Assembly: GCA_905478335.1 (NCBI GenBank)
Contig: CAJQIC010000030.1
Location: 1-64,000 of the forward strand
DNA from: an uncultured Bacteroidia bacterium
Lineage (GTDB): Bacteria > Bacteroidota > Bacteroidia > NS11-12g > UBA9320
Direction: 5' to 3'
Length of the DNA stretch: 64,000 bases
A program made the position numbers and the translations under genes. Below, in pieces: positions 14,306-31,784 of this stretch (within the stretch, counting starts at the first letter, position 1; each line of letters starts with the position of its first letter). The notes beneath the pieces were generated by a model. It was given only the letters and a program-made list of their open reading frames with translations, made no database searches and had not been told where the DNA came from.

Positions 14306-14379
14306 CGGTCTGGACGGGACTCGAACCCGCGACCCCCTGCGTGACAGGCAGGTATTCTAACCAACTGAACTACCAGACC
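14306..14379 (-). tRNA. tRNA-Asp (anticodon GTC)
   Basis: On the minus strand, acceptor strands GGTCTGG and CCAGACC pair perfectly over 7 bp. The anticodon stem-loop CCTGC-CTGTCAC-GCAGG carries GTC, and the T arm GCGGG-TTCGAGT-CCCGT is canonical. The discriminator base is G and CCA is not encoded. It is 74 nt long, is driven by the promoter at 14428-14455 and is followed by the terminator at 14260-14290. Confidence 0.97.
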
Positions 14380-28361: not shown

Positions 28362-29522
28362 ATGACACGTGTTGTAGTAGGTCTTTCTGGAGGCGTTGAC
28401 TCATCTGTAGCCGCAGCATTATTGCTAGACCAAGGTTATGACGTTATTGGTGTGTTCATGAAGAACTGGCACGATACTGATGTTACCATTAGTGACGACT
28501 GCCCTTGGGAAGAGGACAGTAAAGACGCACTGATTGTTGCTGAGAAACTAGGAATACCATTTCAAACCCTTGATTTAAGCGCAGTTTATAAGGAGCGGAT
28601 TGTTGACTATATGTTCGCAGAATATAAAGCTGGACGTACGCCTAACCCGGATGTATTGTGCAACCGTGAAATTAAGTTCGATGTTTTCTTGGAGGCTGCT
28701 CAATCCTTGGGTGCCGACTTTGTTGCCACGGGTCATTATTGCCAAAAAGAAATCACGAAGTCTGAAGATGGAGACATCATGCACCTCATAGCTGGCAAAG
28801 ACCAGAATAAGGATCAATCGTACTTTTTGTGCCAAGTCAACCAAGAGCAACTTTCGAAAGCGCTTTTCCCGATTGGCCATTTAGAAAAGAGTGAAGTACG
28901 CGCCATTGCGAAGGAAAGAGACCTTATTACCGCAGATAAAAAAGACTCTCAAGGTTTGTGCTTTATTGGCAAAGTGCGTTTACCTGATTTTCTACAACAA
29001 CAGTTAAAACCAAAGTCTGGAAATATCGTTGAGATATCTCCAGAGTCCGGTTTATATGAATCTCATCCAGAAAACGCCATGCACGAAATGGCGTATCAAG
29101 AAAGTGACGGTTCTTTAGTTGGAAAACATCAAGGTGCTCACTTTTATACCATAGGCCAGCGAAAAGGTCTTGGCGTTGGTGGCAAAGAAGAACCTCTTTT
29201 TGTAATAGGTACAAATGTTGATTCCAATACGATTTACGTTGGAATGGGCGACCATCACCCTGGTCTATCGCGCAAAAGGTTATTTATACAGGATTCGGAT
29301 GTGCATTGGGTGAGACCTGACGTATCACTAAACATCGGAGAAGAACGAACGTATTTGTGCCGAATACGGTATCGACAATCTTTGCAAAAAGCGACATTAT
29401 CTCGAACCCAAGAAGGTTTAATCATTTCATTCAATGAGCCGCAAAAAGCCATCGCAGCAGGTCAGTTTGCCGCATGGTACGACGGTAATGAGTTAATAGG
29501 TAGTGGAATTATTAGTGCTTAA
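28362..29522 (+). CDS. mnmA: tRNA-specific 2-thiouridylase
   Basis: MnmA thiolates U34 of tRNA-Lys, -Glu and -Gln using sulfur from the cysteine desulfurase pathway. The 386-residue protein has the PP-loop SGGVDSS (residues 9-15), the catalytic Cys100 in TPNPDVLCN and Cys200 in QGLCFIG, and the tRNA-interaction segments [18 protein letters not shown] and RYRQS. The stop codon shares TTAA (29519-29522) with the convergent gene. It probably shares a message with the T9SS-sorted protein upstream, although no functional link is apparent. Confidence 0.97.
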
Positions 29523-30367
29523 TCGAACCTAAAGCCAAACCTAATATCTATCCTGTGATAGAATATTTCTTCTTTTATTTCAGCAATCCTATTGGATCCA
29601 AATTCCCAAACAAATCCTTGATATTCAGCCTTTAGTGTTTGATACTTATATCCAAACTTTAAATACCAACTTCTGTTTTCGTGGCGTTTATTGGTAATGC
29701 CAAAGCCCGGGTTAAAGTAAAAACCCCCAGTTACTTTTGAATTATCACGCCAACTATATTCAGACAAGTGAGGGACTCCGTAACCTGTACCATAGAAATA
29801 AAACCATGAACGGTTTTGCTCTTTGAATCTTCCATAATACTCTATTCCCAGTGGTATAACCGTAACGTCTGGCCACAAATAAGCATCGTAACCCGCCGTT
29901 GCGGCAATGTGGTGCCGATAGCCAAAACCCTTTCCATACCCAAAATTCACGCTCCCCCCGGCCACTGGGTAACCCCAGTAATCCAAACCAAGTGGAACCC
30001 CAAAGTCAAAAAAGAAGTAGTTACTAGAATCGTTAAATGGTTTGTTAGATTTTTTTGGTCTGACTAAAGCCTTAGCCCGCTCCTTTATCTCAGCATCAAT
30101 GAAACTAACACTGACAATATCACCCCAAGGAATGTGTAAGGTGTCTTGCTGGTTAACAAACAAGTCGATACTGTTCTGGTAATCAATGGTAAGCACCTTG
30201 CCTTCAATTGTTGCTCCAGATTTTAACTCGACCCGTGCATAATTTTGTTTACTCTGGGCATCAGAGGACAAAGCCAAAAGGCTAAACATCGAGATTAGTA
30301 GAATATGAACCAATCGTGATTTTTGGCGAGGATAAAGTCCTAAAAACTTTGTTAGTTTTGAATGCAT
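29519..30367 (-). CDS. Exported protein of unknown function, beta-barrel-like
   Basis: The frame opens as far as 30457, but ATG at 30367 is chosen because it gives a signal peptide ([20 protein letters not shown], cleavage near DAQ). The 282-residue product starts with [19 protein letters not shown], a pattern resembling a small beta domain, and continues with aromatic-rich, Gly-rich strands ([73 protein letters not shown]) ending in [10 protein letters not shown], the look of an outer-membrane barrel. No family is recognised. Only 13 bases separate its start from that of the divergent lipoprotein at 30381, so the promoters must overlap coding sequence. Confidence 0.7.
30353..30360 (+). promoter_or_regulatory. 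-7 promoter element (TAGTTTTG) of the propeller lipoprotein gene
   Basis: TAGTTTTG lies inside the first codons of the divergent gene and precedes the ATG at 30381 by 20 bases. Confidence 0.45.
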
Positions 30368-30380
30368 TTTGGCGGAATTT

Positions 30381-31598
30381 ATGAAAAACCTTCCTGTTTC
30401 TTTAGTCATTTTTATTTCAGTTTTAATACTGAATTCATGCGCTTCAAATTGTGACAAGTCGGTTTACTATTACGCAAAAGTACCCGTATATGGCAGCTTA
30501 GAGTCGCTCAGAAAAGGTGTTGAAGTAACTGACGTTCAATCCATGGACACAATTACTAAAATAGTGGAACTGAACCATGCATACTTTTTGGAAGAAAAAG
30601 GCAAAGGAATACACGTTATCGATAAAGTAAGCTTCAATGAACCCCGCTTAGTTTCCTTTATTCGTATTCCAGGTTTTCTGTCGGCTGAAGCAATCAACAA
30701 TACATTGTTTATTGGTCAGGCAACTGATTTATTCAGTATCAATGTGTCTGATCTTAACTCAATTCAAGTGAGCTCCCGTGTTAAAAACGTGCTTAATGCT
30801 GGTTTTGTCAAATCCGACTCGTTCATAGTCGGTTACACAGAAGCCTATATTCGCTTGGTTCTTGAGGATGCCAAATGTGCTGAAACATACATTTATCCCG
30901 AAAACAGTTCTGAATTTCTTAGCCTGTCTGTCGAACCACACATTAACCTGCATATCACCAACAATCATGTACATGCTTGCGATAACAACAATGTTTCTAG
31001 TTTTTCAATAAACAATGATGACCTCCTTTTTAGAGCGTCAAGTCCCATTGGTACTGGAAGAAACACAACGAGCCCAACAATAAGCAGTACGCCAGAATTT
31101 TTAGCCGTTGGCACACCGACGTCAAATATCTTCCTTTTTCAAAATGACGGCTCGTTAAATCGCGTTGTTTCCACCTTTGTGAGCAGTCCGTTTACCTGCG
31201 GAAAATTCTCGCTATTTCAAAACACTGCGATTTACACTGACTTTGAAACAAATCCGGCACAAGGCTGTGGCTCACAAAACAGCATGCACATCCACCCCAT
31301 TAATGGACTTAGCCAACCATTTATACCACGACAGTTTTCGTTCACTCAACCACAATACACGTCAATCGTTGATTCAACTTTGCTATTATGCGATGGCAGT
31401 GCGGGATTTAGTTTGTTCGATTTTAAAAACCCAAGTATGTTTAACCCTGATACTGACAAGTTCGACGCGTTGACTAACGTCCATGCTGCCGTTGGTGTTT
31501 TATCTACAGAAAGGGCCTTGGTTTGGGGGAATGATGGTTTGTTTTATTTCGATGTGAAAACACCATCCAATATCCAATTGATTACGGAAATAAAATAA
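30381..31598 (+). CDS. LVIVD-repeat-like lipoprotein
   Basis: ATG at 30381 (not the upstream TTG at 30369) gives a lipoprotein signal MKNLPVSLVIFISVLILNSC. The 405-residue protein shows short repeats of the type seen in LVIVD beta-propeller proteins: KGIHVIDKVSFNEPRLVSF, TLFIGQATDLFSINVSDLNSIQ, FLAVGTPTSNIFLFQNDGSLN, TLLLCDGSAGFSLFDFKNPSMFNPD and LFYFDVKTPSNIQLI. Such proteins are surface-located and bind partners of unknown nature. It has no visible terminator of its own; the next sequence downstream is the candidate RNA on the opposite strand. Confidence 0.72.
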   Translation: MKNLPVSLVIFISVLILNSCASNCDKSVYYYAKVPVYGSLESLRKGVEVTDVQSMDTITKIVELNHAYFLEEKGKGIHVIDKVSFNEPRLVSFIRIPGFLSAEAINNTLFIGQATDLFSINVSDLNSIQVSSRVKNVLNAGFVKSDSFIVGYTEAYIRLVLEDAKCAETYIYPENSSEFLSLSVEPHINLHITNNHVHACDNNNVSSFSINNDDLLFRASSPIGTGRNTTSPTISSTPEFLAVGTPTSNIFLFQNDGSLNRVVSTFVSSPFTCGKFSLFQNTAIYTDFETNPAQGCGSQNSMHIHPINGLSQPFIPRQFSFTQPQYTSIVDSTLLLCDGSAGFSLFDFKNPSMFNPDTDKFDALTNVHAAVGVLSTERALVWGNDGLFYFDVKTPSNIQLITEIK

Positions 31599-31772
31599 AG
31601 GGCGTGAAAGTTGAAAAATCCCTAAAAAATAGGATTTGGCCCCCAGCAATATCGCAACCTTCCACCGTTTGACTTACGTCTCTTTCATCGAAATGAATGA
31701 GGCCTGGTTTTGAAACACCGGTTAAGCCGGTAAAGTATAAGTGTTGAATTTTTCAATCGGATTCAACGCCCT
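31599..31772 (-). ncRNA. Candidate undescribed structured non-coding RNA, about 174 nt
   Basis: On the minus strand, a consensus -7 element TACCTTTG (31777-31784) is followed by AATC and then A31772, the expected start site. The first seven bases AGGGCGU (31772-31766) pair with ACGCCCU (31605-31599) at the other end, followed by UUAUUUUAUUU. Inside lie a GUUGAAU/AUUCAAC hairpin (31767-31743, sharing two bases with the closing stem), an ACCGG/CCGGU hairpin (31731-31717), a UUCAU-UUCG-AUGAA hairpin (31697-31684, a UUCG tetraloop on this strand), a GGCCUC/GGGGCC long-range stem (31704-31699 with 31643-31638, one G.U), and AAAUCC/GGAUUU (31637-31632 with 31621-31616). No open frame, tRNA, tmRNA or RNase P signature is present. 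It converges with the gene ending at 31598. Confidence 0.5.
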
Positions 31773-31776
31773 GATT

Positions 31777-31784
31777 CAAAGGTA
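31777..31784 (-). promoter_or_regulatory. -7 promoter element (TACCTTTG) of the candidate RNA
   Basis: TACCTTTG on the minus strand, with a weak TGTG near the -33 position. The last G is four bases from A31772, the same geometry as the leaderless genes in this window. Confidence 0.5.

Follow-up and report, generated by a model that had tools for sequence, protein, structure and literature searches.

On the minus strand of the window (the whole 64,000-nucleotide stretch of DNA analysed here) the gene of a 174-nt RNA is located at 31599-31772. Re-reading of this strand over 31599-31784 gives the octamer TACCTTTG at 31784-31777, a 4-base gap and then A31772, which is the first base of AGGGCGU (31772-31766); the partner of this heptamer, ACGCCCU (31605-31599), is followed by a U-rich run (31585-31598). 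The octamer is a -7 promoter box of the TAnnTTTG type, recognised by the housekeeping sigma factor of Bacteroidota. For Flavobacterium psychrophilum this housekeeping box has been placed at -12 to -5 (PMC9723704), and with such a spacing A31772 becomes +1. The first-pass annotation, which had aimed the element at A31772, is upheld by both sequence and spacing: among 31 homologues the identical position before the closing stem is occupied by TAnnTTTG in 19, a number that rises to 24 for the looser T[A/T]nnTTTG. The U-rich 3' end, also noticed earlier, is plainly seen in the sequence, its U-tract is conserved among homologues, and together with the closing stem it constitutes the terminator; the RNA probably ends a few U beyond 31599, at about 31590. 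An ORF search inside the RNA on the minus strand gave nothing notable (the longest fully contained frame has 23 aa), in agreement with the absence of an open frame reported before, while a sigma70/terminator scan, ill-suited to the phylum Bacteroidota, gave nothing useful. It can be said that this is a stand-alone gene which has a promoter and a terminator of its own and as a rule occurs once per genome.

Within the family the RNA is placed between mnmA, pointing towards it, and a glycosyltransferase gene pointing away. In the genus of the window two extra genes without a Pfam match, 29519-30457 (-) and 30369-31598 (+), with overlapping predicted starts, are inserted between mnmA and the RNA, an arrangement found only in some genera. 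In the related genus g8 (L091, L101, L103, L110, L111, L115) the 3' end of the RNA comes near the mnmA stop codon, the two being convergent. Outside the family the search for mnmA next to the RNA was negative, therefore the RNA is regarded as an independent unit.

The closing stem H1, formed by the arms 31766-31772 and 31599-31605, was examined by an arm-swap permutation test. Among 23 representatives its sequence is wholly different between lineages and its pairing is always kept: the mean pairing energy is -17.9 kcal/mol for own arms versus -7.0 kcal/mol for swapped arms (an approximate effect size, since the anchors used to excise the arms were set by hand, in part from inspection of the sequences), and the native mean was not reached in any of 200,000 permutations. 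The 7-bp pairing of the ends proposed in the first-pass annotation is thereby confirmed. Next comes H2, a downstream or P2-like helix (5' arm UUGAAAAAUU, 31747-31756; 3' arm AUUUUUCAA, 31611-31619), which in other families becomes UUUGGUAAACUC/GGGGUUUACUCAAA. It is followed by a central bubble, the 5' strand of which, CAACACUUAUACUUUACC (31729-31746), is unpaired in clade consensus folds and aligns to the ACUCAACA... stretch of the Rfam family RF01685. The 3' strand, AAAUCCUAUUUUUUAGGG (31620-31637), holds a small hairpin CCUA/UAGG, which is supported by covariation pair counts and is present in several per-clade consensus folds. Above the bubble lies H3 (GGCUU, 31724-31728, with GGGCC, 31638-31642), and the apical arm contains H5 (AACC, 31706-31709, with GGUU, 31656-31659). 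Alignment A4, made from sequence only, shows 73 double-change cells for the inner helices plus the hairpin of the 3' bubble strand taken as one set, versus 26 in shuffles (0/500), and the signal collapses when the partner is shifted by one column. H5 is paired in 95% of cases, and of its four base pairs two have 13 and 15 double-change cells. H3 shows double changes from GC to AU (0/500 shuffles for cells with a double change); in other lineages it is of the GAC-/-GUC and GAG-/-CUC types, and in distant homologues GAGU/GCUC. H3 derives from the consensus and is missing from the lowest-energy single-sequence fold. When several clades were folded separately, their consensus structures coincided in most of the main elements, namely H2, the open 5' bubble strand, H3 and the apical arm. 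Compensatory changes, proposed earlier as a check, are thus found in H1, H2, H3 and H5.

Not all inner helices suggested at the outset have survived. The UUCG-capped hairpin (UUCAU-UUCG-AUGAA, 31684-31697) appears in folds of the window RNA as a variable apical tip and is absent as such in many relatives. The long-range GGCCUC/GGGGCC stem does not covary convincingly: its two double-change counts were reached by 276 and 61 of 500 shuffles, and two out of six pairs are disrupted in one third of the sequences. H3, which uses the same 3' arm, does covary. For the 5' arm of the GGCCUC/GGGGCC stem, a short helix with GUGG is the better explanation. A mimic of the -7 box was also sought in the bubble; both bubble strands gave a slight excess over shuffles with no fixed position, and no such element is claimed. 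Fold stability against shuffles is weakly unusual (z -1.8 for 191 nt, z -2.0 for 174 nt) and would not suffice alone, so the case rests on conservation and covariation. These confirm the original idea of a stable, structured RNA of about 174 nt with its own promoter and paired ends.

A DNA search of 38 genomes of the same family returned clear relatives in several genera. The aligned copies have in common the promoter box, the bubble sequences, the helices and the terminal U-tract, and the bubble strands with their flanking helices are the most conserved parts of the RNA. A covariance model built from the family alignment (R1) finds the RNA in 32 of the 38 genomes and in 21 of the 22 good ones, in essentially one copy each; second matches in two family genomes are weak, one of them being the reverse strand of the same place. 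Pattern matches in unrelated records (L092, L095, L097-L099, L108, L109, L112, L114) had no R1 match and were taken as chance. With a further model over the combined clades (R3), 79 of the 247 class genomes give a match, and nearly all of these have one copy. The count is not independent for those of the 247 genomes on which R3 was trained, many of the matches being new nevertheless, and absence from the remaining genomes does not mean lack, as stricter filters lose weak matches. In the same set of 247, RF01685 has matches at E <= 1 in 28 genomes, one of them above its cutoff.

The identity of the RNA is not apparent from Rfam directly. At gathering and relaxed thresholds no match was obtained near the RNA in the window, RF01685 (6S-Flavo) gave none at any reported score, and the only match noted in the window is a tRNA at 14306-14379. 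The canonical 6S model RF00013 has no match at the locus; its best one in the genome is elsewhere, with 11.9 bits and E 6.1, and the whole genome contains no other RF00013 or RF01685 candidate. The earlier remark that 31599-31772 matches neither tRNA, tmRNA, RNase P nor SRP RNA is therefore right as regards these four, none of which Rfam reports there; the RNA does not stand outside the known classes, and the 6S suggestion, then mentioned as one possibility, is borne out by the homology. In four of the 247 class genomes searched (G209, G175, G260, G110) the RF01685 and R1 matches overlap on the same strand; with genome sizes of 2 to 3.4 Mb, the probability of such agreement by chance is negligible. 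One member of the window's own family, L007, matches RF01685 over the full length of the model at 36.4 bits, below the gathering score. A model built only from loci detected by RF01685, all outside the family of the window (R2), provides a test free of that family. On the 2.78-Mb genome its sole significant match is 31602-31763 (-), with 40.2 bits and E 3.5e-5 (the next has E 2.6); it was confirmed without filters, and R2 also recovers almost all other family members tested. From the overlap of RF01685 and R1, the L007 match and the single significant match of R2 it follows that the RNA is a divergent 6S-Flavo RNA, of common descent with the RF01685 members, and its closing stem, internal bubble and apical stem are conserved with covariation, as befits a 6S RNA. 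As a new, divergent representative of a known RNA family it lies beyond what the present Rfam model can reach. The gathering threshold of 85 bits, which the window does not attain and which one of the 247 class genomes passes, singles out the seed group; what it gauges is how far Rfam reaches, not descent.

We are highly confident that the feature at 31599-31772 (-) is a divergent Bacteroidota 6S RNA with its own promoter and terminator, whose function as a polymerase mimic is deduced from other 6S RNAs; this function is unproven but well-founded. An RNA of 6S-Flavo ancestry might have changed its partner and become a structured trans-acting sRNA, either binding core polymerase or acting as a neofunctionalised copy. 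For the 6S-related Ms1 RNA of actinobacteria the binding partner is core polymerase (PMC9130861), the window sequence is far from the Rfam consensus, and polymerase binding is here a prediction. Such a change is nevertheless improbable, for the RNA is the only 6S homologue of its genome and is single in nearly all relatives, and the bubble strands with their flanking helices, i.e. the functional core, are what has been conserved best.

Two explanations without any independent RNA deserve far less credit. As the RNA directly abuts the end of gene 30369-31598 (+), it could be read as the 3' UTR or convergent-terminator structure of this gene; in most of the family, however, the gene is not beside the RNA (in g8 mnmA abuts instead), and RNA, promoter box and bubble persist. 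Moreover it is the minus strand that carries the promoter, the U-tract and the homology, so this reading, already contradicted, retains hardly any probability. A chance fold in AT-rich intergenic DNA, for which the z-score of only about -2 could speak, is refuted by stems that co-vary across families and by the single significant match of the independent model R2, and can be given next to no weight.

6S RNA is a small RNA that sits on RNA polymerase and restrains transcription once growth stops. 6S RNAs are open-promoter mimics, their 3' bubble strand providing a -10-like element, and block the primary-sigma polymerase; release follows as the polymerase synthesises a short pRNA on a template that runs from the 5' bubble strand into the downstream helix (PMC8876501). 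Transcription of 6S RNA is documented in Flavobacterium (PMC9723704), and in Bacteroides thetaiotaomicron 6S RNA was detected by dRNA-seq together with two classes of pRNA (PMC7366714), from which it is concluded that the 6S/pRNA mechanism operates in Bacteroidota. By analogy with the established 6S biology, the window RNA would fold as a rod with a central bubble, bind the primary-sigma holoenzyme by mimicking an open promoter, and sequester polymerase as growth slows. For release, the polymerase would make a short pRNA, proceeding from the 5' bubble strand (31729-31746, the expected template region) into H2 and unwinding it, which puts the expected pRNA template within 31729-31756.

With the 6S-Flavo RNA described by Weinberg et al. 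2010 (RF01685, PMC2864571) the window RNA has in common the block order ACUCAACA... / CAGGCC / GUGGAAG..UUG / CAAAUC..AGGAGUUU, the same helices around the central bubble and the usually single copy. It differs in having no reportable match to that model (relatives outside family f55 reach 24-49 bits versus the gathering 85), in a larger apical tip, and in H2, which is nearly A/U-only, UUGAAAAAU instead of UUGNUAAACUC. The RNA of B. thetaiotaomicron (PMC7366714), from the same phylum and with known pRNAs, is likened to it at the level of description. Canonical 6S RNA (SsrS, RF00013) shares the rod, closing stem, central bubble and apical arm, although its model has no match at the locus, and B. 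subtilis 6S-1 has a small hairpin in the 3' bubble strand (PMC8876501), as here.

It is speculated that the nearly A/U-only H2 may ease release. A bolder proposal, that of a large unrecognised 6S clade in Bacteroidota with mimic elements re-tuned to TAnnTTTG and a nearly A/U-only H2 altering pRNA-driven release, is tentative and rather doubtful. In terms of detection, 6S RNA reaches well past the group recognised by the Rfam 6S-Flavo model (79 of 247 class genomes versus 28 with RF01685 at E <= 1). A gathering cutoff of 85 bits looks too stringent for the family, as a single genome of the 247 passes it though homologous loci with co-varying stems occur in dozens. The clade offers diverse, strongly covarying sequences for a corrected family model, as well as natural variants with which the mimicry of the unusual Bacteroidota promoter by 6S RNA can be studied. 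Two genomes carry two 6S RNA copies each, G083 (C37:11975-12143 + and C93:5490-5664 -) and G114 (C3:61129-61297 + and C7:46678-46847 +), and these pairs are possible 6S-1/6S-2 paralogues in Bacteroidota.
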